A model generated the notes under the pieces. The model was not told the DNA's origin and did not search any database. It worked only from the letters and a program-made list of their open reading frames with translations. This document shows positions 1 through 39,968 of a stretch of DNA of 64,000 bases, one piece after another. The stretch spans positions 3,984,666-4,048,665 of the forward strand of contig KV440964.1 of NCBI GenBank assembly GCA_001636495.1, given 5' to 3'. The translations under genes were made by a program, and so were the position numbers. Source of the stretch: Sutcliffiella horikoshii (lineage in GTDB: Bacteria > Bacillota > Bacilli > Bacillales > Bacillaceae_I). Within the stretch, counting starts at the first letter, position 1; each line of letters opens with the position of its first letter.

Positions 1-613
1 GCTTTCCTATCTTATTGCCATACTTCTCTTGAAAAAAAGAGTATCCTTGGTTCAAACTCAAATAGAATCCACTCATGTCTGCTTTAAATAGATAAACAAC
101 ATAATAACCACGAGTAGCAGAATTAGTAACATTTCTCGAAAAGATACACAACCATGGTATTTCAGCCCACTGACCTTGGCCTACAGATCCTGTTACTTGA
201 TACTTAGATTCATTTAAAGGCACTCCCTTAATAAAGCTGCTTTTAAGATTCTCACGGATAAAACTTCCCATTGCATGCCCTTTAAACTGTTCTGTCTTAG
301 ATTTGAGATAATTACCAAGCACAAACTGCAAATGTTCAACTAGAATTAATTGATTTCTCCTCGGAAGTTTTTTGAGCTCTGACATTTCATTAGTTGTAAC
401 TGAATGGTTAAGCAATTGGTTTAGAGAAACTCCAAACAACTCGGCAAGTTTTATTAAAGTCTCTCCATCGACTCTTTGCTCACCGTTTTCTATTTTACCT
501 AACGATGTATACGGCACACCAATCTCACGGGATAATTCCCTTAAAGACAAACCTTTTGATTCCCTTTGACTACGGATACTTCTTCCAATGTATATTTTAT
601 CAATCCTTGACAC
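1..613 (-). CDS. XRE-type HTH regulator fused to McrB-type N-terminal domain (DUF3578), partial
   Basis: The gene is open at the left edge, so about 204 N-terminal residues are visible. The GTG start at 613 has AGGGGA nine bases upstream. Residues 8 to 62 form a Cro/CI-type helix-turn-helix (SIRSQRESKGLSLRELSREI, then a second helix with YTSLGKIENGE). From about residue 100 the protein matches the DUF3578/MrcB_N family: a G-S-x-G-x-G-x-W-A-x-x-P-W core followed by SATRGYYVVYLF and YLSLNQGYSFF. In McrB-type restriction proteins this domain is the N-terminal DNA-recognition module. The fusion suggests a sequence-specific regulator that may also sense modified DNA; that is inference. The operator dyads at 712 to 793 lie upstream. 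The C-terminal part, possibly a nuclease or NTPase, is outside the window. Confidence 0.82.
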   Translation of the reverse strand, partial: MSRIDKIYIGRSIRSQRESKGLSLRELSREIGVPYTSLGKIENGEQRVDGETLIKLAELFGVSLNQLLNHSVTTNEMSELKKLPRRNQLILVEHLQFVLGNYLKSKTEQFKGHAMGSFIRENLKSSFIKGVPLNESKYQVTGSVGQGQWAEIPWLCIFSRNVTNSATRGYYVVYLFKADMSGFYLSLNQGYSFFQEKYGNKIGK

Positions 614-641
614 AACTACATCTCCCCTATGTTTTTATGCT

Positions 642-670
642 TTAATATTAACATGAATATTTGAGTGCAA
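642..670 (-). promoter_or_regulatory. SigA-type promoter of the HTH-McrB_N gene
   Basis: Minus strand TTGCAC (670 to 665), 17 bp spacer, TATAA-like TATTAA (647 to 642), placed just before the GTG start at 613. A good match to the housekeeping consensus with ideal spacing. Confidence 0.6.
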
Positions 671-711
671 GCAATTTTTTCAACCTTTCCCAGTCGTTTT
701 TTTATTATTCA

Positions 712-793
712 ATGTTTCTAAAAAAGAAACATATATAAAATTATTTTTGTTTCTATATAAGAAACACGGATATATTTCTAAACAAATAGAAAC
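712..793. promoter_or_regulatory. Three operator-like dyads (TTTCT...AGAAA)
   Basis: Dyad 1 (712-732) is ATGTTTCT-N5-AGAAACAT, perfect over 8 bp arms. Dyad 2 (748-766) is TGTTTCT-N5-AGAAACA, perfect over 7 bp arms. Dyad 3 (773-793) repeats TTTCT and AGAAA with an 8 bp spacer. The arrangement fits binding by the dimeric HTH protein encoded just to the left. A possible rightward promoter (TTGTTT at 747, 18 bp spacer, TATATT at 771) overlaps dyad 2. Confidence 0.6.
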
Positions 794-1181
794 TGCTTTG
801 CGTCTTAACCAAGCAGTTCCATAACCTTTTTGATTTTTATTATCTTAAATTTTTTATTAATTACAAAAACTCCCAACAACTACATGCTTTGAGAATACTA
901 TTCTTCTTGCAACTCAATAGAATAATACAAATGATTTTTTGAATTATTTCCGTGCTTTTAGTTAAAGTGAAATCACATCTATTTTAGAATACAGTGGATA
1001 CCCAATTTCGATTTTAGTATTAATTAAAATATGTCCTGTCTATACAATAAGAACTGCTTACAAATTCTCCACCATCTTAAAGTAAAAACATAATTAAAAA
1101 AGAAAATATTGGATATATACCTTTCACTGATAAAAAAAGAATATATAATGTAACTAGCTTGCTTTTTAGGAGGGAATAAAT
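794..1181. other. AT-rich intergenic stretch, no gene seen
   Basis: Very AT-rich spacer. A hairpin with arms AACTGCTT and AAGCAGTT lies at about 791 to 822 and could stop transcription in either direction. No reading frame with a ribosome binding site was found before the gene starting at 1182. Confidence 0.5.
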
Positions 1182-1811
1182 ATTAAAAAACTATTATTCT
1201 TTATTATATTTTTAGGTGTTTTATATTTTATTGTAGGCTTTTTAGCAGTTAAATTAGGTTGGCTTGACAATAATACTTATCATTCTTATGCAACAGTTGT
1301 CGGTGGGATTGCAACATTATGCGGTTTAATAACTTTCACTTTACCTAATTTAACAGCAGATGATTTAGAAAAACTTGAAATCAAATCCCTAGAAAGAGTA
1401 ACAAAAATAGCAGAAGATTTAAATTTAAAAAAAGGCGAGCTTTACATTAAGGAATCTGAAATAAGTAGGCTAGACCAACAAAAAAAAGAAATGGAATTTC
1501 TAGTTAGAAAAGCAAGTTTAAGTCTTTTCTTACAAGATCAAGTAGAAAGAAATGAGACCAGAGTTTTAAAATTAATTAGCGAGGATAAAGAACTCATCCG
1601 TTCACTAGAAGAAATAATGGCGAACAGGGAAAAATTAGCTGCACTAGATGAAGAAATCAAAGTGAGTGAACAAGTGGAATTATTAGAGGAGATCATCAAA
1701 AGGGCCAAAGGAAATGAAAATAGCTCTATTACATTTATGGGCATAGGTACTATTCCTATTCCTATTACTCCTTTTATAGAAAGGTTGATTCAAGTATTCC
1801 GTCTTAAATAA
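1182..1811 (+). CDS. Membrane-anchored coiled-coil protein with apparent ATT start
   Basis: Unrecognised protein of 209 residues. The frame opens with ATT-AAA-AAA eight bases after a perfect AGGAGG (1169-1174). No ATG, GTG or TTG occurs in frame before codon 104 (ATG at 1491), and that ATG has no good ribosome binding site. Reading from ATT gives a sensible protein: a first membrane segment (about residues 4 to 21), a short loop with GWLDNNTYHSYA, a second membrane segment (about 36 to 51), then a long charged helical region (about 60 to 180, many E, K and L) predicted as cytoplasmic coiled coil, and a hydrophobic tail rich in I and P. ATT initiation is rare but known (infC). The alternative is a recently lost ATG. 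It belongs to the mobile element; function unknown. Confidence 0.62.
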   Translation: MKKLLFFIIFLGVLYFIVGFLAVKLGWLDNNTYHSYATVVGGIATLCGLITFTLPNLTADDLEKLEIKSLERVTKIAEDLNLKKGELYIKESEISRLDQQKKEMEFLVRKASLSLFLQDQVERNETRVLKLISEDKELIRSLEEIMANREKLAALDEEIKVSEQVELLEEIIKRAKGNENSSITFMGIGTIPIPITPFIERLIQVFRLK

Positions 1812-2413
1812 AATAATTTCCTGGATATCGAAAAAAGAAAGTGTTTTATTTCTTAGCATGGGTTCTCCATTTTACCCATTGAGTACAAAAATATATTAAG
1901 TAAATCCTGTATGTAAGCCGTACCCCCGTCTCTATATGGCTTGGGGGTACGCAATCTACACATACCTCTACTGCGGACGTATTAACTAGGTTCCTTAATT
2001 CTTAGAATAATAGAGTTTTCTTCTTTAACGAGCGAGTAGCTCTAAGAAAAGAAATTTATACACGGTGAGGACTCTCTCTTTCCTATTTCCCCTTCGTTCT
2101 TTGTTTCGTTTTTTCTTCAATTTACTTTTAGCCGCTATTATTTCTTACTATTTCTTTGCGTAGAGTAACTATATAATACTTAACAGTTAAATGCTGTGAT
2201 ATATAATATAGCCTATCTTCAAACAGTTATGTAATTACGCAGCGAACAAACAAGACTTCTTACTTCGGTTTACTTGTTTAAGGGGTAGAAAATTAATTTA
2301 TAGACCATAGCAGCGAGTAACCTTTAAATATGTTATACCTGGAGTTTCCCTATACCGTAACAGTGCGTAGTCCTATTATCTAAGCCTTTTAAGCTGCCGC
2401 CCTTCGCGTACAC
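1812..2413. other. Intergenic stretch of the element with hairpins
   Basis: No credible coding frame. It holds a perfect 9 bp inverted repeat (CGTACCCCC at 1919-1927 with GGGGGTACG at 1943-1951), probably the end of the upstream transcription unit although it lacks a clear T-run, and a second dyad with arms AAACAAG and CTTGTTT at about 2246 to 2281. Confidence 0.4.
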
Positions 2414-2527
2414 TCAATAGAGCGATCTACTAACGCCCCGTTGGTCTGCTTCATGTACTATCTGGGCTAGTTCCTGCTGTGGCATCACGTTATACTCTCC
2501 GTCATTATTAACTATTTTATATTCCAC
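2414..2527 (-). CDS. Small unknown protein (37 aa)
   Basis: Minus-strand frame of 37 residues starting at GTG 2527, seven bases after AGGAGG, which is as good a ribosome binding site as any in the element. The peptide is polar and probably soluble (starts MEYKIVNNDGEYNVMPQQEL, ends in RSLY). I do not recognise it. Two 24 bp direct repeats at 2615-2670 lie just upstream and may control it. Small size is the main reason for doubt. Confidence 0.45.
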   Translation of the reverse strand: MEYKIVNNDGEYNVMPQQELAQIVHEADQRGVSRSLY

Positions 2528-2614
2528 TTGTTCCCCTCCTTTCTATTTTCGGACGAAAAAACCCTCTCGTATAGATAGGCACTCTCATGATATACGTTTC
2601 GTATTTTGTTTACA

Positions 2615-2670
2615 CACTTTGAAAATATCGTACCTTTTTGCCATTTCACTTTGAAAATATCGCATCTTTT
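2615..2670. repeat. Pair of 24 bp direct repeats, iteron- or operator-like
   Basis: CACTTTGAAAATATCG followed by TACCTTTT (2615-2638) recurs at 2647-2670 as CACTTTGAAAATATCG followed by CATCTTTT. Start-to-start spacing is 32 bp, about three helical turns, so a protein could bind both on one face. They lie 88 to 143 bp upstream of the small minus-strand gene. Confidence 0.6.
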
Positions 2671-2797
2671 CTAGATCCATTAATACCTTGCGGCAGTAAG
2701 GATAGGCGGTGTTTTTAAGGCGAATAGCTCTCTTACTCTTATAGTTATACTTCGCAAGCATCTTCGCATATTATAGAGTTTTTGTTTGCGTTTTATG

Positions 2798-2921
2798 CGG
2801 GCTACGCCCCTGCTCGCCTGCGGCTCTCATATTAGCGATTAAAATATCCAATATAACTAATATATTTTCGCAAGAAATATTAATAGTTTGAGCTATTGCG
2901 AAAAACTACAGGCGTAGCCCG
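2798..2921. other. Nested inverted repeats (124 bp structured segment)
   Basis: An outer 11 bp perfect inverted repeat (CGGGCTACGCC 2798-2808, GGCGTAGCCCG 2911-2921) encloses an inner 9 bp one (TTTTCGCAA 2865-2873, TTGCGAAAA 2896-2904). It precedes the DUF4160 gene. It could be a structured RNA leader, or an origin-like DNA element of the mobile element; the sequence alone does not decide. Confidence 0.5.
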
Positions 2922-3007
2922 TTAATAAATCGGTGTTGGTTGTTGTCAAAAAGAAAGGATTAGTAAAACTATTGTCGAAATAATTGATTTAGAAAGGAGG
3001 AGATTTT

Positions 3008-3406
3008 TTGAATGAAAATCTGGAGTTAGCTGTAGTAGAGTTATTACATGATTTAAACGAAGGACGCATAAAACGAATAAAGGTTAGAAGTATAAAGCCA
3101 TATACAGGATATAGACGAGTTTATAAGCCGCATAGATATCAATTACTAGTGGATAGAGTACATAATATAGAAATAAGAATTTGGAATAATGACCACCCAC
3201 CACCGCATTTTCACGCAATCTTAAACAGTCATTTTGATGTAAGAGTAGATATTGAAACATCTACAGTACTATCAGTAAAAGACGGAAAAATCCGGAGTAA
3301 ACATAAGAAAATGATTGAATCTTGGGCTGAGGATAATAAACATCTGTTACGTACAAAGTGGGAAGAAACTAGACCAACTGAAATTTACGCAACTGCTAAT
3401 CGATAA
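3008..3406 (+). CDS. DUF4160 domain protein
   Basis: Protein of 132 residues starting at TTG, seven bases after AAAGGAGG. Residues 55 to 125 match the DUF4160 family: an IRIWNNDHPPPHFHA core with conserved D-H-P-P-P-H-F-H, followed by a basic segment and W-x-x-x-N (SWAEDNKHLL). In bacteria this family is often paired with small DUF2442 proteins and has been linked to toxin-antitoxin loci. No DUF2442 partner is visible here; instead the protein has an unusual 50-residue basic N-terminal extension (KRIKVRSIKPYTGYRRVYKP). It could act on nucleic acid, but this is unproven. A stem-loop with T-run follows. Confidence 0.75.
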   Translation: MNENLELAVVELLHDLNEGRIKRIKVRSIKPYTGYRRVYKPHRYQLLVDRVHNIEIRIWNNDHPPPHFHAILNSHFDVRVDIETSTVLSVKDGKIRSKHKKMIESWAEDNKHLLRTKWEETRPTEIYATANR

Positions 3407-3456
3407 CCCCTCGTATTTAAAAGTATATTGCGTAATCTAGATACAGCAGTCGATCG

Positions 3457-3489
3457 CTCTCCCCCTTACGGCTTGGGGGGATTGCTTTT
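3457..3489 (+). terminator. Terminator after the DUF4160 gene
   Basis: CCCCC/GGGGGG stem (3461-3480) with a nine-base loop followed by ATTGCTTTT. The T-run is weak. Confidence 0.5.
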
Positions 3490-3792
3490 GCTTCCCTGTT
3501 ACTGCTTATTTCCTTCTTTTGCTATTTTCTTAATGCAAAGAGTAGCTCAGTAGCTCTTTACTGCAAACAGCGAAGACGCTTCTACAGCCATTTAAAAGTC
3601 TTCTTTCCCCTGCTATCCTTCGATAGTCCTTTTGACTAATCGGACTGCTTCTCTAGAACGTTCTGACATAGCTAACTTTTTCACTGTGTACTCTTCTACC
3701 TATCATTTCGCTACACAGTTTTATGTATAGTGGTAACGCTCTATGTATCGCAAAGGCTCGACAAGCATATGCGGACATAAAAAAAGAGCGAC
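3490..3792. other. Intergenic stretch, nothing recognised
   Basis: About 300 bp between convergent genes, with no frame carrying a ribosome binding site and no strong hairpin. Confidence 0.4.
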
Positions 3793-4416
3793 TTAACTGC
3801 GCCCTGCTTCGCTCTCTAATTGTTTGACTAGCTTGTAAAACGTCGTCTTCTTAACAGCCGCCCTCTTCATGGCTTCTACTGCGCTAATCTTGTCCGCCTT
3901 CCATTCCGCATAGGCTTCTTTAAATGCGTCCGTATATGCTGCCCTCGGTCTTCCTAAGTGCTTCCCTTGCGCTTTAGCTATTTTTATTCCTTCCGCTTGC
4001 CTAGTGCGTATCTTGTTGCGCTCCTGTTCGGCTATGTAGCTAAACAACGATAAGAATTGGTCTTCCATTACTTTCCCAACGTCGCCCATATCCCTAAATT
4101 TACGACTATTAAACAGGCTTTCATTCTCTAGTACGATTATGTCTGCACCTATTCCTCTAGTTATCTCTTTCCATTCGCTAATTATAGCGTCGTAATTTCT
4201 TCCTAGTCGGTCAAGTGCGTCTACATACATTAAGTCGCCTCTACGCAGCGTACTCTTTAACGCTTGATATTGCGGACGGTTAAAGTCCTTCCCGCTCGCT
4301 TTGTCTGTAAATATGTCACGTTCACATATACCTAATTCCGTCATTTTGTTTAGTTGTCGCTCTTCGTTTTGTTCCTGTGTTGATACTCGAATGTAGCCAA
4401 ACGTTTTCGCCTCCAT
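3793..4416 (-). CDS. Serine site-specific resolvase/invertase
   Basis: Protein of 207 residues of the small serine recombinase family (Tn3 resolvase, Hin/Pin type). The N-terminal catalytic domain shows FGYIRVST with the nucleophile Ser12, then GDLMYVDALDRLGRN with the conserved R-L-G-R active-site segment, and a long E helix (EQERNKIRTRQAEGI). The C-terminal helix-turn-helix covers about residues 165 to 200. I chose ATG 4416 (MEAKTFGYIRVS) because it has AGGGG seven bases upstream and matches the family start; ATG 4434 would add six residues. It probably resolves multimers or inverts a segment of the element. Repeated TACGTTCG motifs lie upstream at 4462-4529. Confidence 0.9.
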   Translation of the reverse strand: MEAKTFGYIRVSTQEQNEERQLNKMTELGICERDIFTDKASGKDFNRPQYQALKSTLRRGDLMYVDALDRLGRNYDAIISEWKEITRGIGADIIVLENESLFNSRKFRDMGDVGKVMEDQFLSLFSYIAEQERNKIRTRQAEGIKIAKAQGKHLGRPRAAYTDAFKEAYAEWKADKISAVEAMKRAAVKKTTFYKLVKQLESEAGRS

Positions 4417-4461
4417 GTTATCGCCCCTTGTCATAAATTCCCTATAACAAGTATACTGCTA

Positions 4462-4529
4462 TACGTTCGTAAAGGTCAATATCAATTTAGAACGTTCGCA
4501 AAATAAATAAATCTACCTATACGAACGTA
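4462..4529. promoter_or_regulatory. Res-like cluster upstream of the resolvase
   Basis: TACGTTCGTA (4462-4471) and its exact reverse complement TACGAACGTA (4520-4529) flank a related GAACGTTCGCA (4490-4500), with roughly 28 to 30 bp between sites. A fourth relative (GCGAACGTTT) is at 4601. Spacing and position fit recombination subsites or an operator of the resolvase. Confidence 0.4.
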
Positions 4530-4662
4530 TCAGATAGCTCTTTACCTATTCCGCAAAGGTATACCATTACGGACATACATTAAAAAGTCTTTTGCATAAC
4601 GCGAACGTTTCTTTTGTGATTTTTTTACTATTGCTATGATTTACGACGATAAAGGAATAGAA

Positions 4663-4818
4663 TTATAATTTCGGCTCAGTTTCATCTAGTAGGCGCAATA
4701 TATTTTTCAAGTCTATTACAGCCCTTTCCTTCGTGTAAGAATCGTCTTCTGATAGCATTCCGATAATTGGTATTAGCTGTGCCTTAATTACAACAATATC
4801 CTCTTTATAGTTCATCAT
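4663..4818 (-). CDS. Small unknown protein (51 aa)
   Basis: Minus-strand frame of 51 residues starting at ATG 4818, eight bases after AGGAGG. Sequence begins MMNYKEDIVVIKAQLIPIIG and ends LLDETEPKL. It looks like one or two amphipathic helices with an acidic end, no membrane segment. I do not recognise a family. It is separated from the resolvase by about 230 bp of non-coding DNA, and its strong ribosome binding site supports it as a real small gene of the element. Confidence 0.6.
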   Translation of the reverse strand: MMNYKEDIVVIKAQLIPIIGMLSEDDSYTKERAVIDLKNILRLLDETEPKL

Positions 4819-5140
4819 AGCTTTCACCTCCTATCGTATATAGATTAGATTAATATTGTCCTTTTTATTAATATACATCCCCCTGAGTTTGAAGCACCGT
4901 GTCCAACAGCGGAATGCAGCGCCTGAAATACGTAAACATTAGTAAAACTTACCTTTTGAATTTATGTATATCCACCAACGCTTTCATAAGGTAAAGTGAT
5001 AAAGTTATACTGTTTACATGACTTGCATCTATTTCATTTGCGACTTGGTTGACCAATTATGATATATAATTTAGTTATTAATAAAAACGTCCTCCGTAGT
5101 GCTAGTACGAAAAGACGTTTTATGAAAGGCAGGTGTCCTA
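4819..5140. other. Intergenic stretch with leader hairpin of the toxin-like gene
   Basis: No gene longer than a few codons. Near its end the dyad AAAACGTC (about 5085) with GACGTTTT (about 5114) would fold in the leader of the 25-codon gene at 5141, placing its weak ribosome binding site next to a stem. A TATAAT at about 5062 could be the -10 box. Confidence 0.4.
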
Positions 5141-5218
5141 ATGGACGCAAATACAGTTCTAGCGGTATGCTCGCTTTTATTGGTAGTTCTAGCTATCAAT
5201 GATAGGCGAAAACAATAA
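5141..5218 (+). CDS. Hydrophobic 25-residue peptide, possible type I toxin
   Basis: ATG at 5141 begins a 25-residue peptide: a four-residue polar start, one membrane helix (TVLAVCSLLLVVLAI), then a charged tail NDRRKQ. This layout (single helix, positive C-terminus, weak AGGTG ribosome binding site, 5' leader hairpin, strong terminator right behind) is that of the short type I toxins of Firmicutes prophages and plasmids (Fst/Ldr, TxpA/BsrG or Hol_Tox types). The antitoxin would be an antisense RNA from the minus strand across 5200-5280; I cannot locate its promoter with confidence. Family membership is inferred from layout, not from clear similarity. Confidence 0.5.
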   Translation: MDANTVLAVCSLLLVVLAINDRRKQ

Positions 5219-5231
5219 CATTACCTGCGCT

Positions 5232-5268
5232 AGCGTTCGAATGTTTGCCGACATTTCGAGCGCTTTTT
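5232..5268 (+). terminator. Terminator after the toxin-like gene
   Basis: Stem AGCGTTCGAATG (5232-5243) with CATTTCGAGCGCT (5252-5264), one bulge, then TTTT. Confidence 0.7.
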
Positions 5269-5581
5269 CATTATATATTATAGCAAGCCAATGGTAAAAC
5301 AGTGACGGTTTTTGGTACGCAATAGAACAGGTTTATGATTAGTATGGGACATTCTGACCAACTTATAATAGGCGTTCTTCCTTGTCACTTTCTACTTTCA
5401 AAAAAACGCAGTATATTCATTCAGCGAAAATACTATTCCATTTTTATCTAAATATGGTATTATATTAATTAGCTCGGAAACGTGGGGATGTCGGTCTAGG
5501 AAACCATCATTTAAATAACTGAGTAAAATCAATACCTCGTTAGCTGCGGCGCGCCGCAAAAATCTTATGAGGTGATTGGTT

Positions 5582-5779
5582 ATGAAAAAGAAAGTATTGT
5601 TGATTGTGACTATGGTAGTTTTGCTACTCCTTCTAGGGGTAAGTACAAAGTTGGTAGTGGTACAAATCGTACTAAACACAAACTCGCTGGCTTCATACTG
5701 GAATATTCTCTTAGTAGGTATGTTCGGTATAGTAGGTGGAGAACTCCTAAAGCTTGTCTTAAAAAGGGTGCCTGACTGA
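5582..5779 (+). CDS. Small two-helix membrane protein (65 aa)
   Basis: ATG 5582 preceded by GAGGTGAT seven bases away. The 65-residue protein has a lysine start (MKKK), one membrane helix (about residues 4 to 28), a polar loop with LNTNSLASYW, a second helix (about 42 to 60) and the tail KRVPD. Not recognised. A 14 bp palindrome TGCGGCGCGCCGCA (5545-5558) precedes the ribosome binding site. The following segment (5774-5960) is unusually rich in hairpins. Confidence 0.5.
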   Translation: MKKKVLLIVTMVVLLLLLGVSTKLVVVQIVLNTNSLASYWNILLVGMFGIVGGELLKLVLKRVPD

Positions 5780-5960
5780 GGTTCGCCTCTGTAGGAGGCA
5801 TCCTCACCTACTGAGGGTTCCCCCTAAATGCCGTTAAGGCATAGCTCGGGTGAACATAGTCACAAGTCGACACAGTGCTTTCCAATTGTAACAATCACAC
5901 GGCGTACAAGGACTCTTTTCAAAAGCGAATGCCTAGATTCGTTATGAGGGAGTCCTTTGT
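5774..5960 (+). other. Hairpin-dense segment, possible structured RNA
   Basis: Successive dyads: GAGG-TTCG-CCTC (5778-5789), the competing GCCTC/GAGGC (5785-5799), CCTCA/TGAGG (5802-5816) whose CCTAC loop can pair with GTAGG at 5791, TGCC/GGCA (5829-5841), and a long outer stem AAGGACTC/GGAGTCCTT (5908-5957) with CGAAT/ATTCG inside. No gene was seen. The first hairpin may end the upstream gene; the rest suggests a folded transcript. Confidence 0.4.
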
Positions 5961-6007
5961 TGCGTTTTCTGAAGCTAAACTAGCTTTATTTACATTCACA
6001 TTATTTT

Positions 6008-6033
6008 AAAAAATGACGCTCGACAGTGAGCGC
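6008..6033 (-). terminator. Terminator after the 94-aa gene
   Basis: Minus strand stem CGCTC/GAGCG with loop ACTGTC followed by ATTTTTT. Confidence 0.75.
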
Positions 6034-6054
6034 CTTTATGGTTCTATTTACTTC

Positions 6055-6339
6055 CTACCGCTTCGTTACATGCCACTTTAGGATTGCCTCTTTATAACGC
6101 ATGTATTCGTTTGCTAGATGCGCCCTTGCTGCCTTGCATTCGTCTAGGTCTTCGCGACGTCCACGCATTTCATAGAATATACTTTGCGCTCGATTGTACA
6201 GCGCTCTAAATTCTTTTAGAGTAGGCGCAGCTAGGTTATACTCGCTCATTTCTGCGTTTTTGTAATTGGCTGTAACGTAGTTTGTTACGTTTTGGTCATT
6301 GATAATATTGAAGTAGTCAGTAGCTTTTATTATCCGCAT
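6055..6339 (-). CDS. Hypothetical protein of the element (94 aa)
   Basis: ATG 6339 has AGGAGG upstream. The 94-residue soluble protein is rich in charged residues and tyrosine (RALYNRAQSIFYEMRGRRED, then EYMRYKEAILKWHVTKR) and is probably mostly helical. No family recognised. It lies immediately downstream (about 100 bp) of the recombinase gene on the same strand, but a strong terminator at 6413-6440 separates them, so it is probably transcribed on its own. Could be a recombination directionality factor or a DNA-binding accessory protein; this is only suggested by position. Confidence 0.6.
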   Translation of the reverse strand: MRIIKATDYFNIINDQNVTNYVTANYKNAEMSEYNLAAPTLKEFRALYNRAQSIFYEMRGRREDLDECKAARAHLANEYMRYKEAILKWHVTKR

Positions 6340-6412
6340 ATGATTTCCCTCCTTTCGTTTCTGTACATTTGTATAGGCGCTCTAGTTCGGGCTAATTGGT
6401 TAGCGTAATGAC

Positions 6413-6440
6413 AAAAAAAACGCTCGTATAAGCGAGCGCC
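6413..6440 (-). terminator. Terminator after the large serine recombinase
   Basis: Minus strand stem CGCTCG/CGAGCG with a short loop followed by eight T. It overlaps the stop region of the recombinase gene. Confidence 0.85.
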
Positions 6441-7954
6441 TAATTATACTCTATTAATATTTCAAAAGGTTTTTCTCCTCCGACGTCGTTTTTCTCCTTC
6501 CAGTAGTAAACTTTGTCGATAACTTCGCTTAGGAGTTTGTTAGTCTTTGTTTGGTTAGAAGTGTCTCTAGATAGTAGATGTTCTATTTTCTCTTTTGTTT
6601 CCTGAATGCGGTCTACTTCTGCTTTTACTGTTGCGCCTTCTAAGGTCTTTAGTTCTTGCTTAATCGTACCCTGCTGCCTTCTAATTGATTCGATCTCTTC
6701 CGCAGCTTCCTCGTCATTATAGATACCGTTCTTATATCCATTTTGCACCCGCTTCTTTTGTTCGTCCAACGCAGAAAGTCTATTTGATAACGACATCTGC
6801 TTTTGTTCGACTTCGTTAATATAACTATTGTCTCCTCTTATTATAGTCTCTATTTCATTGTCTATCATATCTAGCTTGAGCTTTAGCTGTGCAAATATTG
6901 CTGCCTCTACTCTGCTAGCCTTTACTCCGTAATTAGTACACTTAACAGCTGTCTCACGCTTTCCCTTAGTAGATTTGGACGCAAAACAATTTAATACGTA
7001 TAACTCTCGTTCATCTTTAATTAGCGATTTTCTAGCGCTTCTTTTATTGTATTTCATACAGAAAGACAAAGTTTGATTACATTTAGGGCAGACTAGTAAC
7101 CTTGATAGTGAATAAACACCTCTTTGGCAGGTTTGCGGTACTTTCCTGTTCTGAGCTAGATTCAATTGCGCCTTATTGAAAGTATCTTCGTCTATTAGAG
7201 CAGGGTGTGCGTCTATTACGTGTATAGGCTCTTCGTTCTCTAGTTCGTAACGTACAATCCCTATGTAAGCTACGTTTCTTAGAATGATTGATGTAGAGCG
7301 TGTCGTAAACGGTTTCCCTTCATTTGTCGTATATCCTAGTAGGTTTAGATGTTCACATATCTCCGTCTGATTGTAACCTTTGTTTACGTATAAGTCGTAA
7401 ATAGAACGTACAACGGCTGCTCTTTTTTCGTTAGGTACTAGCTTCTTTGTAAACTCGTCTTTTTCGTAACCAATAGGCGCAATAGAAAAGAAAGTACCCT
7501 TTTTAACTGATTGTATACGTCCTCGTAATAGCTTTCTTTTTGTCATACGCATAAAATGGTTATCCATTTCAGATTGAATACCTGTATAGAAAATGTCATC
7601 ATCATTTAAAAAATTATAAGTCTTGTTTAGTGTAAACAGCATTAAACTTTTCGCTTTCATAAATCTTACGAATAGTCCAAAATCTGTCCTATCCCTTGTT
7701 AGTCGGTCTTGGTCTGTAACCAGCACGCCGTCGTAGATACCTCTTTCTAGCTCACGTAACATTTCCTTTAATTTTGGTCTGTTCCAATCCTCTGAACTTC
7801 CTTCTTCCGAGAAAATAACGTATTCCATATTGTTACTATTGGCATAGTCAGTAAGCAATTCAATCTGTCTGTCAATTTCTATAGCGTCAACGTCCTTTAG
7901 TCTAGACTTTCTTACGTAAACAACCACCAATTTCTTTAGTTTTTTTGCTAACAT
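6440..7954 (-). CDS. Large serine recombinase (integrase) of the mobile element
   Basis: 504 residues with all parts of the large serine integrase family. Residues 8 to 150: resolvase catalytic domain with nucleophile Ser17 (YVRKSR) and the DQDRLTRDRTDF active-site segment. Residues about 170 to 270: recombinase domain (GTFFSIAPIGYEKD, NQTEICEHLNLLGYTT, TTRSTSIILRNVAYIGIVRY). About 285 to 345: zinc ribbon beginning LLVCPKCNQ and ending with Cys residues of CFAS and KCTNYG. About 370 to 450: coiled coil used for synapsis. ATG 7954 follows AAGGGGGAAGGATATT. Such enzymes integrate phages and conjugative elements without host factors. The gene sits about 130 bp from yfkAB, the apparent integration target. 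Confidence 0.95.
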   Translation of the reverse strand: MLAKKLKKLVVVYVRKSRLKDVDAIEIDRQIELLTDYANSNNMEYVIFSEEGSSEDWNRPKLKEMLRELERGIYDGVLVTDQDRLTRDRTDFGLFVRFMKAKSLMLFTLNKTYNFLNDDDIFYTGIQSEMDNHFMRMTKRKLLRGRIQSVKKGTFFSIAPIGYEKDEFTKKLVPNEKRAAVVRSIYDLYVNKGYNQTEICEHLNLLGYTTNEGKPFTTRSTSIILRNVAYIGIVRYELENEEPIHVIDAHPALIDEDTFNKAQLNLAQNRKVPQTCQRGVYSLSRLLVCPKCNQTLSFCMKYNKRSARKSLIKDERELYVLNCFASKSTKGKRETAVKCTNYGVKASRVEAAIFAQLKLKLDMIDNEIETIIRGDNSYINEVEQKQMSLSNRLSALDEQKKRVQNGYKNGIYNDEEAAEEIESIRRQQGTIKQELKTLEGATVKAEVDRIQETKEKIEHLLSRDTSNQTKTNKLLSEVIDKVYYWKEKNDVGGEKPFEILIEYN

Positions 7955-8081
7955 AATATCCTTCCCCCTTTATTAACTATAGGCGCAACGTAATTACTTT
8001 ATTGGTTGACGAAGAAGAATTGACATAGGTCACCTTAATTAATCATAATGAATAAGGATAAATTAGATTGGAGAATTAAAA

Positions 8082-9260
8082 ATGAAACAATTTACAACCA
8101 TTCCTAAAACTAAACAAACACCTCTTAATGATGCGTGGGAAGCTTATGCTGATATAGAGAAGTATGGTCTACCTACTCTTTCAAGTATTGAATTTACAAC
8201 AACAAACCTATGTAATATGAGATGTTCACATTGCGCTGTAGGTCATACGCTCTCTAACATAGACTCTCAAGCTCTTCCTTTGGAGCTATTACTGCAAAGG
8301 TTAGAGGAAATCCCAACACTAAGAACAATAAGCATTACAGGCGGAGAGCCTATGTTGAGTATGAAGTCAGTAAAGAATTATGTAGTGCCTTTATTGAAAT
8401 ATGCACACGAGAGAGGTATATACACTCAAATAAATTCAAATCTAACATTAGACTTAGAGAGGTATAAACTCATAACACCTTATCTTGATGTACTACATAT
8501 TTCTCATAATTGGGTTACAGCAGATGAGTTTATAGATGTTGGTTTTGCTATGAGTGAGAGAAAGCCAACAAGAGAGCAACGCAAAGCATTATTTGACAGA
8601 ATGATTAGCAACTCTAGAGCGTTATCCGAAATGGGAGTTCTAGTCTCTGCCGAAACAATGCTAAACAAGAGAACAACACCTCATATAGAAAAAATTCATA
8701 AGCAGGTCGTAGAAGAAATGGGCTGTAAAAGGCACGAGATTCACCCTATGTATGATTCAGGCTTCGTTAAGTCGCAAAATACGCTACATACTATGTACCC
8801 AAGCGATTTCGCTAGTGGCATGGAGGTTCTGACGCTTGAGGAGATGCGAGATGCCATACACCGCCTGCTTGATATGCGTGACGAAAATACATGGATGCTT
8901 TTTGGTACCCTGCCTTTCTATCCTTGCAGTGATAATCCTGAAGACAGAGCATTACTTGAACGAGTGTATAAGGCGAAGAATGTGACAGTCCGTAATGACC
9001 CGGACGGCCGCTCGCGTTTAAATGTGAACATTTTTAACGGGGACATCATTGTGACAGACTTTGGTGATACGCCTCCTCTTGGAAATATCCAGACAACAGA
9101 CCTGCCGACTGCATACGAGAGATGGAAAGAGACCTCCATTGCAAAAGAGTTGGAATGCCATTGTCCTACGGTTGCCTGCCTGGGGCCAAATATTTTGGTG
9201 AAGAGTGCGTACTATCCGGAGATGGATTTCACGGTGCGTGAAGCGAAGATAACGAAATAA
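8082..9260 (+). CDS. yfkAB: YfkAB-like radical SAM protein, chimeric by integration
   Basis: 392 residues, recognised as Bacillus YfkAB. The radical SAM cluster motif C-x3-C-x2-C is at Cys44, Cys48 and Cys51 (TNLCNMRCSHC), followed by a SAM-binding GGEP (ITGGEPMLS). The C-terminal half has further Cys residues (HCPTVACLGPN) fitting an auxiliary cluster. Substrate unknown. Codon use changes midway: 11 of 12 Arg codons before about 8730 are AGA or AGG, while 8 of 10 after about 8845 are CGN, and the 5' half is more AT-rich. With an integrase gene just upstream, I infer that the element ends inside this gene and supplies its 5' half. A strong terminator follows at once. Confidence 0.88.
   Translation: MKQFTTIPKTKQTPLNDAWEAYADIEKYGLPTLSSIEFTTTNLCNMRCSHCAVGHTLSNIDSQALPLELLLQRLEEIPTLRTISITGGEPMLSMKSVKNYVVPLLKYAHERGIYTQINSNLTLDLERYKLITPYLDVLHISHNWVTADEFIDVGFAMSERKPTREQRKALFDRMISNSRALSEMGVLVSAETMLNKRTTPHIEKIHKQVVEEMGCKRHEIHPMYDSGFVKSQNTLHTMYPSDFASGMEVLTLEEMRDAIHRLLDMRDENTWMLFGTLPFYPCSDNPEDRALLERVYKAKNVTVRNDPDGRSRLNVNIFNGDIIVTDFGDTPPLGNIQTTDLPTAYERWKETSIAKELECHCPTVACLGPNILVKSAYYPEMDFTVREAKITK
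8730..8845. other. Inferred attachment-site junction inside yfkAB
   Basis: The interval in which codon use and base composition switch from element-like to host-like. The crossover of the large serine recombinase should lie here. The exact core cannot be read without the left junction or an empty site from a relative. Confidence 0.45.
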
Positions 9261-9261
9261 G

Positions 9262-9298
9262 AAAACGCCTGGGACACGTACGGTCTCCAGGCGTTTTT
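9262..9298 (+). terminator. Terminator after yfkAB
   Basis: AAAACGCCTGG (9262-9272) pairs with CCAGGCGTTTTT (9287-9298). Symmetric, so it also works leftward. Confidence 0.9.
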
Positions 9299-9302
9299 AT
9301 AT

Positions 9303-9490
9303 TGGCTCTTTTCTCAAAGATTGTTGCCATTCCCTTGTAAAAAGTCGGCAATTGGACTTTTTACCGCATATAAACTCTAAGGTAGGCATAAAACCTATCG
9401 TGATAGCCGGGAAAAGAGCACGATAACAAGGAAAATTACGGTTGGTTTAAAAATACGAAAAAGCAACAAAGTTTACGAAACAGCCTTTAT
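9303..9490 (+). repeat. Dispersed repeat R1, copy 1 (about 190 bp)
   Basis: Shares an ordered series of blocks with the inverted copy at 39770-39968: TCTTTTCTCAAAGATTGTTG, then TAAAAAGTCGGCAATTGG with CTTTTTAC, then GGAAAAGAGC, and a tail of AATACGAAAAAGCAACAAAG type. No coding frame. Between the blocks similarity is low, suggesting an old non-coding mobile sequence. Confidence 0.75.
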
Positions 9491-9491
9491 A

Positions 9492-9815
9492 TTAGATAGA
9501 TGGCACTTGCGCTTTCATTCTTTTCCCTTTGATTGTGCAATAAGAACCAAAAAAAATAAGCACACTTCCCATTAGACTTGAACCCATAATCAGTGCTCCA
9601 TCCCATCCTCGGGAGCTTCCTGCAAGCTGCCATGCTTGATATGGAATGAATAATAGTAGAAACATAATCCCTATCCCCCAGAGTAGAAGGATAGCATTGT
9701 GTTTTTCCTCATCAGATATATTCGATGGCCTTTGCCTCATTTCAACAGTAACCATTTTCCGTACAATAATTAGTAAAACCGACAAACTTAAGACAAGTAA
9801 AATCAGGTGCATCAT
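9492..9815 (-). CDS. Small integral membrane protein (107 aa)
   Basis: 107 residues with three predicted membrane helices (about 2 to 18, 42 to 62 and 72 to 92), separated by a polar segment with QRPSNISDEEKHN and a loop AGSSRGWDGA. ATG 9815 is preceded by AAAGGAGG at a longish 11 bases; the second Met would not help. No family recognised. It stands alone between repeat R1 and a long non-coding spacer, and its third helix ends in a basic tail (KGKRMKAQ) placing the C-terminus inside. Confidence 0.65.
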   Translation of the reverse strand: MMHLILLVLSLSVLLIIVRKMVTVEMRQRPSNISDEEKHNAILLLWGIGIMFLLLFIPYQAWQLAGSSRGWDGALIMGSSLMGSVLIFFGSYCTIKGKRMKAQVPSI

Positions 9816-10145
9816 GGTGTTGATGACCTCCTTTTCATTCTCATTAATTAAGACGCTTGAAGCTGGAAAAAGTTACGGTCGGCAGTAGATTTTTCCTTCG
9901 ACAAGTGGGAGGACGTTAGATGGACATAGCTCCTGATGACGGCATAACTTCAAGTAATTTATAGATACCCTCTTTTTAGGAGAGGTGAAACTGGTAAAAT
10001 AGGCACGTTTTTTTGTTTGTGGATTTTGAGGGCTGTTTTTTGTGGCTTTAGAGGCACTTTTGTTTAGCTTTTAATTTCATCCCTCCACTTAAAACCTCTT
10101 TCTCCCCATTGAGCACGGTTGTTCCCCCCACTACTCCATAGCGCG
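9816..10145. other. Intergenic stretch, no gene seen
   Basis: About 330 bp with T-rich plus strand after 10000. No frame with ribosome binding site and no convincing structure was found. Confidence 0.4.
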
Positions 10146-10182
10146 AAAAAAAACACCAGCCCCCATTGAATAGGGCTGATGC
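10146..10182 (-). terminator. Terminator after yfkD
   Basis: Minus strand ATCAGCCC/GGGGGCTGGT stem followed by eight T. Confidence 0.85.
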
Positions 10183-10199
10183 CAAATAAATCCTAATTT

Positions 10200-11009
10200 C
10201 TATCTTGGACGATCAGACGCCGCAAAAATAAAGCTCACATGGTCCTGAACAGGAATCCACGCCCCTATTCCTTGCGATGTCACATTCTTCACGACAATCT
10301 TCATTTCTTTCCCTTTTAGCACCAAATACACTTCTCCATACGTAATCTTCCCTTTTTCACTAACAGCCGGGGAGTATGCGTATAGGTAGCCAAGCTTTTT
10401 AACCGGGATGTTATATACCTGGTCTTTTTTTGTTCCAGCTCCGACAATGGTCTGGAAGGATAAAGGAAGCTTCGTTTTGTCCATCGCTTTTAGCATCATC
10501 ATTTCTTTGACATCCTCAGCGGCCTCCACTTTTGAAGTAAGTCCGCCCTTGACGCTTTTTTGTGCTTCCTGGCGATAGTGAAGCAGTTGCGGTACTTTTC
10601 CGCCACGGTTATCGGTATAGTTCGTGTTGATCTTTTGATATTCCCAATTCACACTTGTTTCCGATGATTCATAGGAAAGCGGCCATTGCCCCAGGTAGAT
10701 GGTGGCACGGTAGCCGATTGCGACAGGTGATGGAGAAATGTTGGACTCATTCAAAATTTTGATGAGCTTCGGATTTTCAATTTTCACATTGGAAGAATCA
10801 ATCAGTTCTTGGGACAGCTCACTCGGCTGCAGGTAGGGCACATCCTGGGACGGGTTTGGGTATGTGTTGTCCTTGGAGATATCTAGAACCGAATTCGGCA
10901 CCTCCAGTTTTTTATTATCGGCTTTCACTTTTGTTTCCTCGGCTTGGACGCTATTCATCGTAAAGCCAAATGCAAGAAAGGCTACCAAAAGGATTTGAAG
11001 TATGCGCAT
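10200..11009 (-). CDS. yfkD: YfkD-like secreted protein
   Basis: 269 residues with a cleavable signal peptide (MRILQILLVAFLAFGFTMNS, cleavage likely after VQA, before EETK). The mature protein contains PSVLDISKDNTYPNPSQDVP-type and YRATIYLGQWPLSYESSETSV-type segments typical of the Bacillus YfkD family, whose function is unknown. Length matches the family. ATG 11009 is preceded by AAGGAG. It keeps company with yfkAB, yfkE and yfkF homologues as in B. subtilis, supporting the assignment. Ends at a strong terminator. Confidence 0.85.
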   Translation of the reverse strand: MRILQILLVAFLAFGFTMNSVQAEETKVKADNKKLEVPNSVLDISKDNTYPNPSQDVPYLQPSELSQELIDSSNVKIENPKLIKILNESNISPSPVAIGYRATIYLGQWPLSYESSETSVNWEYQKINTNYTDNRGGKVPQLLHYRQEAQKSVKGGLTSKVEAAEDVKEMMMLKAMDKTKLPLSFQTIVGAGTKKDQVYNIPVKKLGYLYAYSPAVSEKGKITYGEVYLVLKGKEMKIVVKNVTSQGIGAWIPVQDHVSFIFAASDRPR

Positions 11010-13835: not shown

Positions 13836-14963
13836 TTAGAGGGTAGTATTGTATAAGAGTATCTTTGCCCCTACTAATGATGCATTTAATACGAAATAAT
13901 AATTAGAGGCCGTGTCTAAAACTAATGGACCAGACCAAGTAATATTACTGAATTGACTGCTGAATATCCCTGTAGGTCGTACATCTGAAGAAGCTCCTCC
14001 CACTGTAACATTTCCATTAATAAACGAATTAGTTATATTGGAATAAACTGCTATGTTCATAAACCCATCTGTCCGGCTATCGACCAATCTCTGTAACCTT
14101 AACCCATTATGAATTACACTTCCTGAGAGCCTACTGTTATATACATACGTATTAAGTTGACCTTGGTGACCGGCTTGAACAATATTTCCTACTACATTTG
14201 TGTTTAATAATTGAAATTCTATAGTTGTAAAAGGGTCACCTACTGCCACATTCTGAAATGTAATATTCCCGCTAACAATTGCCCCATCTGTATAATTTGT
14301 ATGGGTACTAACCGATGTACCATTATCAAACGTGCCAATAACGGTAACTGGCCTGGCACGAAACGCATCCCCTTGACTAGTATAAAATGCTTCAGCAGCA
14401 GGATTTGTTTGTATAGTTACGTTTCTTGGAATTGTTGAACTAAAATCTACACCTTGTGCATTTCCGAGCACCCACGGACCTAACCCAAGAAGTTGCACAT
14501 GTCTAGCAGGGGGAATTATAATGTCCTCGTCAAATGCAGAATTGGCTGCGATTAAAATAAGCAACCTTGCTCTCATTCCAAAAGTTACCGCCAAAGGACT
14601 GCTAGTTGCTGCGGTAATAGCTGCTTGCAAAGAGTTAAATGGATCCATCGGGGAACCTGTCCCTGGACCAGGAGCACTCGAATCCGCCCAAAAAACAGTT
14701 TCTTCTCCCCAAAGAAAGACTTCAGGGCCAGGAGGACCTGGGGGACCCTGAGGCCCAGTTGCTCCTGGTGAACCTGGTGGTCCCTGAGGGCCCGTTGCTC
14801 CTGGTGAACCTGGTGGTCCCTGAGGGCCCGTTGCCCCTGTTGCTCCTGGTTGGCCAGGAGGACCCGGTGGGCCTGGGGGACCTGGAAACCCCCTACTTGA
14901 AAAGGAACAAATACAAATCTTTTTACAACATCGTGAACAAAAGCTCTCATTTTTATATGTCAT
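13836..14963 (-). CDS. Collagen-like spore-surface protein with beta-helix-like C-terminus
   Basis: 375 residues. The N-terminus is Cys-rich ([15 protein letters not shown]). Residues 29 to 80 are perfect Gly-x-y collagen triplets (GPPGPPG, then repeated [12 protein letters not shown] units). The remaining 290 residues are rich in N, T, V, I and G with repeated short strands ([16 protein letters not shown]), as in right-handed beta-helix or pectate-lyase-like folds. Collagen-like proteins of this kind (BclA, ExsJ) form exosporium nap in related spore formers. ATG 14963 follows AAAGGAG. A SigK-like -10 box lies upstream (14993-15001), fitting late mother-cell expression. The DNA repeats of the collagen part are GC-rich. 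Confidence 0.82.
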
Positions 14964-39769: not shown

Positions 39770-39968
39770 TACCCCCATAAAATAAGTATGTTTTCGTAGG
39801 TTTTTTTGCTTTCGTAGTTTTATACAAACCGTTATACTCCTTGCTGTCGGGCTCTTTTCCTAGTTGTACAGAATAAACTGCACACCTATTTTAGAGTAGG
39901 TAACCAGTAAAAAGTCCAATTGCCGACTTTTTACTAGCTTATAGCAACAATCTTTGAGAAAAGAGTAT
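39770..39968 (-). repeat. Dispersed repeat R1, copy 2 (inverted)
   Basis: Reverse complement of copy 1 at 9303-9490: blocks AAAGTCCAATTGCCGACTTT (39912 on), GCAACAATCTTTGAGAAAAG (39947 on) and GCTCTTTTCC (39850) all occur in inverted order. Non-coding; the intervening sequence differs. Confidence 0.75.

Follow-up and report, generated by a model that had tools for sequence, protein, structure and literature searches.

Results

The yfkAB locus

The window, meaning the whole stretch of 64,000 nucleotides of Sutcliffiella horikoshii DNA that was analyzed (G000:C1:3984666-4048665, with window base 1 at genome position 3984666), begins within an integrated element that measures 15,248 bp from GT to GT and whose right-hand end falls inside yfkAB (Table 1). 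As the preliminary description had noted, a large serine recombinase gene lies before yfkAB; the two are divergent, with 127 bp separating their start codons (yfkAB start at 8082). The window YfkAB scored 624 bits with TIGR04478 rSAM_YfkAB (cut-off 250), and its reading frame is intact, again as first described. The Arg codon counts originally given for its two halves proved exact. With the gene split at the inferred crossover, the element-derived 5' part has 11 AGA/AGG codons and one CGN codon, as opposed to two AGA/AGG and eight CGN codons in the host 3' part (Fisher p = 0.0015), and base composition shifts alongside (GC3 of 0.295 vs 0.510). The displaced native half found to the left of the window resembles the host 3' part, with two AGA/AGG and 10 CGN codons and a GC3 of 0.543. 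The window yfkAB is confirmed, at the level of sequence, as a hybrid of an element 5' half, which makes up 237 of the 392 codons, and a host 3' remainder.

Table 1. Features of the locus, in window coordinates unless another coordinate system is named.
Feature	Position	Strand	Remark
Integrated element, right-hand part	1..8795	.	begins outside the window at genome 3978212
Cargo, DUF4160 protein	3008..3406	+	
Small serine resolvase/invertase-like protein, 213 aa	3793..4434	-	
Large serine recombinase, 504 aa, motif YVRKSR	6440..7954	-	
Possible element-supplied promoter, TTGACA-18-CATAAT	8020..8049	+	
yfkAB	8082-9260	+	single open frame, 392 codons
Element-borne yfkAB 5' half: whole radical SAM domain and linker	8082..8795	+	
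Codons HPMY	8742..8753	+	natives run straight on into PSDF here
Element-encoded linker up to the crossover	8754..8794	+	last ~28 bp read as attP left arm
attR core CTATGTA	8791..8797	.	spans Met-Tyr codons
Inferred crossover dinucleotide GT	8795-8796	.	across Met-Tyr codons
Native host yfkAB 3' part (YfkB domain)	8797..9260	+	
Orphan native 5' half	L003:5553-6224 = genome 3977553-3978224	same direction as yfkAB	open frame; left of the window

The recombinase contains Resolvase and Recombinase domains above cut-off and a zinc ribbon just under its cut-off (23.4 vs 25.3 bits), and it met the domain-architecture test for large serine recombinases (Resolvase N-terminal, Recombinase, zinc ribbon, about 500 aa). 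Its YVRKSR motif is invariant in all nine aligned recombinase proteins, satisfying the test for a catalytic Ser motif; we take the Ser of this motif to be the catalytic residue. Scores of 99.7 and 59.7 bits against the CcrB and CcrC models were far below their cut-offs of 900 bits, and the best match among solved structures was SprA/YokA.

Besides the DUF4160 protein, the cargo includes helix-turn-helix proteins and two others, one with MrcB_N and HNH matches that pass the cut-off and one resembling GmrSD_N whose score falls short of the threshold (26.1 vs 33.2 bits). The GmrSD_N-like and MrcB_N-HNH genes are convergent (L003:10601-12996). The pair is perhaps restriction or defence cargo; PADLOC gave a single weak match for the former (E 5e-4) and none for the latter. 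The small resolvase-like protein has weak relatives (28-31% identity) directly beside the recombinase in genomes G018, G020 and G023, and its gene could form a second module in such elements. The element proteins scanned, which did not cover all ORFs, included neither a relaxase nor a virion gene, and 10 proteins scanned with PHROGs included no structural or packaging gene (some small ORFs were not covered). At the far end of five elements (our own and those of G018, G020, G022 and G023), a protein of 50-56 aa is encoded that reads towards the orphan and is 45-57% identical to our own copy, its start not being clear in G018. From its position we infer a likely excision factor; it does not align with SprB and has no detectable likeness to it.

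The promoter match before yfkAB is no better than chance, with about one such site expected by chance in the scanned stretch, and an Rfam search of window positions 6000-10200 returned no matches. Farther right, the window encodes a collagen-like repeat protein with GPPGPPG stretches (13836-14963).

Displaced native half and empty sites

It had been predicted that the native 5' half would lie at the left end of the element, and that is where it was located, outside the window. A search of the genome with YfkAB yielded two places, namely the window gene and, 15.2 kb to its left and in the same direction, an orphan fragment covering YfkAB residues 10-234 at 69% identity to the window protein. 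The orphan frame reaches HPMY and stops two codons past the core Tyr. It is 90-100% identical to the yfkAB 5' halves of all 15 same-genus genomes, as against 69-73% for the window 5' half and 80-91% for the window 3' part.

The proposed comparison with empty sites also bore out. In all 15 congeners yfkAB is uninterrupted, and when the element flanks are joined at GT, they encode 374 residues with no internal stop and 87-97% identity to the congener proteins; the actual hybrid, at 392 residues, is 75-80% identical to them. YfkAB is 374-375 residues long in 14 congeners and is read as 382 in one. A second match in the congener G014 is distant (31% identity), lies elsewhere and is a different protein. 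Gene order was compared in only four empty relatives (G005, G012, G262 and G362), and in these, as in G177 and G152, yfkAB is flanked by a fumarase gene and yfkD, a block that the element interrupts in the genome of the window. Fumarase, yfkD and acetyltransferase are presumed names for the neighbors of yfkAB.

A dispersed repeat of ~190 bp with an inner inverted repeat occurs at window positions 9305-9490 and 39792-39965 and at L003:5351-5538. At least 40 copies with 75-100% identity are present in this genome (40 scored of 72 candidates). The repeat was absent from the 19 congener and family stretches compared, and its window copy had no Rfam match.

Related elements and hybrids

A scan of genome contigs identified eight loci with a recombinase 60-68% identical to ours, in records of Bacillus sp., Fictibacillus, Peribacillus, Alkalihalobacillus, Niallia, Priestia, Halalkalibacter and Anaerobacillus. 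Searching 397 genomes of the order at E <= 1e-100 detected the recombinase in nine, our own included; five of these loci coincide by coordinates with those of the contig scan, giving 11 distinct other loci in all, whose recombinases are 52-68% identical to our own. Each of the 11 adjoins a yfkAB with the element-type 5' half. In a 398-genome sample of the phylum, the recombinase model matched at E <= 1e-80 only in our own genome. Three scans of viral contigs revealed no relative of the recombinase or of the half gene and no uninterrupted attP, and phages and plasmids contained recombinase relatives only below 60% identity (about 22-30% among the matches listed).

The window 5' half has matches at E <= 1e-40 in 336 of the 397 order genomes. 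The best 13 of the 336 (own included) are at least 79% identical, followed by matches of 77%, 74% and 73%, and they span eight family codes within one order. Together with G016, G020 and G022, these 13 constitute the 16 hybrids analyzed here. G177 and G152 (77% and 74% identity to the window 5' half) were considered as hybrids and rejected, because they have no linker and their 5' halves branch outside the clade of hybrids.

In G016 (L050:1863-3607) recombinase and yfkAB share one orientation instead of being divergent, and a decayed orphan directly adjoins the recombinase, leaving a minimal element of ~2.7 kb. The ~4-kb element of G022 contains ORFs (L027:11657-12742) that, by our own assumption, resemble an IS3-type transposase.

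Inferred crossover site and linker

The sequence CTATGTA is common to the left junction, the right junction and native sites. Natives read HPMYPSDF, as opposed to HPMY-DSGFVKSQNTLHTMY-PSDF in the window hybrid, such that the linker and the Met-Tyr codons across the crossover amount to 15 extra residues (DSGFVKSQNTLHTMY) that are absent from natives. HPMYP is present in all 63 natives examined and HPMYPSDF in 58. The junction considered first, a 12-bp CACCCTATGTAT core, was dropped because the native genes of congeners read HPMY straight into PSDF.

A linker ending in a second, crossover Met is found in 12 of 16 hybrids and in none of the 63 natives. Counted to the next Tyr, 15 residues are added in the window, versus 21 in each of the 11 remaining linker hybrids; G181 has Asn instead of Tyr after the linker, and its dinucleotide is GA, not GT. 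The crossover part is lost in G021 and G022, where the linker is shortened, and has diverged in G234; G108 has no linker. Both arms are readable only in our own element and in those of G016, G018 and G020. In all four, the 28-bp arms on either side of GT match as inverted repeats at 14-17 of 28 positions, and the symmetry is best at offset 0 among offsets -2 to +2 (shuffle p 0.0005-0.006). Arm length and register were picked after the sequences had been seen, and with this post hoc choice the large serine recombinase test of a short core with inverted-repeat arms around a dinucleotide was met.

Serine integrases require a P arm next to the crossover, and for this reason the element would encode its P arm in frame, as a linker. 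Of the linker peptide, QDSLxSMY is most readily interpreted as P-arm sequence in translation, and the DSGFVGMTA portion farther out may, by inference, be a protein spacer. A structure model of the hybrid was poor (mean pLDDT 59) and places residues 224-247 with low confidence between the two domains; its quality is too low for positioning the linker any further than that.

Decay of elements

A long orphan is present in only four of the 16 hybrids (own, G018, G020 and G022). The G018 orphan carries a frameshift, and in two of the four genomes, G018 and G020, the orphan is on a separate contig from the hybrid. Weak relics occur in G016, G021 and G380 (E 3e-4 in the last), and none was seen in the other nine hybrids by whole-genome search (E <= 1e-3 or E <= 1e-40) or in the stretches examined. 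Twelve hybrids have a recombinase, in every case with an open frame, and the remaining four have none that is intact. Of these, G353 retains recombinase residues 475-503, and no recombinase pieces were found beside yfkAB in G380, G068 or G108. In G017, G019 and G234, recombinase and host neighbor are only some 0.5-1.4 kb apart, and the distance between hybrid and fumarase in G068 is about 0.55 kb. An element origin rests on tree and linker for G068 and on the tree alone for G108.

Because the orphan is unseen in nine hybrids and an intact recombinase is missing from four, hybrids appear to outlive the element, and our reading of G353, G380, G068 and G108 is that they have done so. Relatives lacking the element with the same 5' half had been named at the outset as a finding that would refute integration; such relatives do occur in these four genomes, and all 15 congeners differ from the window in this half.

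Discussion

Proposed mechanism

We consider it very probable (roughly 0.93) that an element-supplied 5' half, joined by the recombinase at an attB within yfkAB, explains the locus. The element would carry a yfkAB 5' half that ends in attP next to the recombinase gene, probably with its own promoter, although a promoter is inferred only. The recombinase, whose role as the agent of attP x attB catalysis is likewise inferred, would join attP to attB, the 7-bp CTATGTA within the near-invariant HPMYPSDF codons of host yfkAB. At attR the radical SAM half of the element would become fused in frame to the host YfkB half, with the attP arm encoded as an in-frame linker between the two domains; at attL the host's own 5' half would be left as an orphan stopping two codons after the core Tyr. 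Excision remains an inference, as does the part that the 50-56 aa protein near attL would play in it as excision factor. Afterwards the orphan, the cargo and sometimes the recombinase would decay, in an order that we can only infer, and the hybrid would be fixed. The preliminary description had proposed that attP lies in an element-borne yfkAB fragment so that integration preserves the gene. Mosaic, orphan and junctions uphold that proposal; it is refined in that a linker precedes the crossover, and a working enzyme is still inferred. What recurs is an intact-looking hybrid enzyme, known from sequence alone, and in the window's genome the host's native front half lies 15 kb off.

Constraint on the hybrid

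An ordinary disrupting integration, with the apparent hybrid a non-functional fusion kept by chance, would be in keeping with what the available portions of one report describe for S. aureus prophages, namely disruption of yfkAB (PMC11852059), so that the gene can evidently be lost. We nevertheless judge this improbable: CxxxCxxC is kept in all 79 hybrid and native YfkAB proteins compared, dN/dS values of about 0.05-0.15 in five pairs show purifying constraint on the element-borne 5' half, and the frame is open across the junction in 16 of 16 hybrids.

Half-gene trees and joint transfer

Separate trees of the two halves, as had been suggested, were built from 16 hybrids, 63 natives and four orphans by quick search, and many inner forks are weak. 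The 5' halves of the 16 hybrids form one clade (SH-aLRT 99, and again 99 with a corrected G018 row), and the orphan of the window is identical to two congeners over the tree columns used. In the 3'-half tree the hybrids need 13 changes, at least eight of them forced by starred branches, and a single grouping of hybrid 3' halves is rejected (AU p about 1e-41). The 3' halves of our own hybrid and of G017, G068, G181, G353, G019 and G189, which are all the hybrids that have sampled congeners, sit with those congeners.

As an alternative, homologous recombination, for example after transformation, could have swapped the yfkAB 5' half for foreign DNA, the recombinase being a bystander. G068 and G108 are compatible with this, each having a foreign-type half without adjoining recombinase or orphan, and some hybrids, once formed, may for that reason have spread by ordinary recombination. 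As an account of the window locus it is very unlikely. Homologous recombination would delete the native half, not move it 15 kb away with a short shared core at both ends, and 12 of 16 hybrids, from different hosts, have a similar junction and linker. Recombinase and 5' half moreover share dS in four of five element pairs, at 0.43/0.40, 0.27/0.23, 0.75/0.69 and 0.75/0.90, with 3'-half dS in the same order saturated, 1.42, saturated and 1.39; the fifth pair, own-G189, fits worse, with the recombinase saturated (pS 0.81) and the 5' half at 1.08 (pS 0.57). Across 12 elements, recombinase distances correlate with those of the 5' half (r 0.42, p 0.027) and not with those of the 3' half (r -0.07). 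The sequences thereby indicate that recombinase and half gene travel together.

The least credible alternative is that yfkAB was tandemly duplicated in the host, after which the copies diverged and one was partly deleted, and that the element arrived independently. It would account for two 5' halves in one direction 15 kb apart and for the ~190-bp repeat to the left of the orphan and to the right of the hybrid. However, a tree that puts the window 5' half among its genus is rejected (AU p = 0.0006), and this half groups with 15 further halves of the element type. The end of the orphan is the very core that it shares with the hybrid, and the repeat belongs to a dispersed family.

Significance

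Element-supplied integration at yfkAB thus remains the preferred reading, resting on a mosaic gene, orphan, junctions, arm symmetry and joint transfer that are all deduced from sequence. If correct, a complete catalytic domain of a conserved chromosomal gene can be exchanged horizontally by site-specific integration, here in eight family-level groups, and mosaic half-gene phylogenies can be explained without homologous recombination. A possible reason also emerges why elements of this kind might be difficult to lose. The target codons, which are nearly invariant, together with the attP/attB pairs deduced here, provide a testable integration system for many Bacillales species. Far more tentatively, and with doubts of our own, recombinase and half gene might be viewed as a selfish domain-swapping unit, in which one radical SAM lineage is grafted onto the C-terminal domains of hosts across the order, a DNA-binding site is printed into the enzyme as a linker, and the arrangement becomes locked in when the displaced half has decayed. 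Swapping the domain may benefit the element, either through host dependence or through altered enzyme behavior.

Comparison with known systems

SCC elements likewise use a serine recombinase, and they integrate at the 3' end of the conserved gene rlmH without destroying it. The test for SCC (CcrA/B/C, rlmH site) was not met, since the recombinase falls below the Ccr cut-offs and the site is in yfkAB. The integrases of dusA islands are of the tyrosine type, and the test for dusA islands proper (dusA site, own integrase family) was likewise not met by a serine recombinase with a yfkAB site. Tests for a gene-preserving element were met as regards both an in-frame replacement end and a displaced end persisting as a fragment (in the window and G022, and on separate contigs in G018 and G020).

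According to the available portions of the source, dusA islands and prophages replace the 5' end of a conserved enzyme gene with new sequence, the original end remains, putative promoters lie before and after, and the new sequence supplies a replacement beta strand (PMC4482086, Farrugia et al. 2015). On that partial account, the yfkAB element is alike in using a conserved enzyme gene as its site, replacing the 5' end and leaving the old end behind. It differs in extent: the replaced end of dusA holds one beta strand, whereas that of yfkAB comprises 60% of the protein, with the whole catalytic domain and a linker. SPbeta, as far as the accessible text describes it, encodes the 58-aa directionality factor SprB at its far end by the attachment site, has inverted repeats at its sites, and splits spsM, which is rebuilt on excision (PMC4191935). 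Within the same limits, the likeness to our element lies in a recombinase whose best match among solved structures is SprA/YokA, a small far-end protein and inverted repeats at the sites, and the difference in that the gene is rebuilt by excision in SPbeta and by integration itself in the yfkAB element. S. aureus prophages in yfkAB, e.g. phiSA169, have the same host gene as attB; the portions seen of these reports describe disruption of the gene and a new yfkAB start codon after integration, with no supplied 5' half (PMC11852059, PMC8638950).

No paper identified by title or abstract opening reports an element rebuilding yfkAB. The main text of a large serine recombinase survey (PMC10083194) contains neither 'yfk' nor 'radical SAM', its supplements being outside the search. 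Gene-preserving 5' replacement, in dusA islands, and yfkAB disruption, by S. aureus prophages, are already known; what sets the present element apart is its recombinase class, the swap of a whole catalytic domain and an in-frame linker made of attP.
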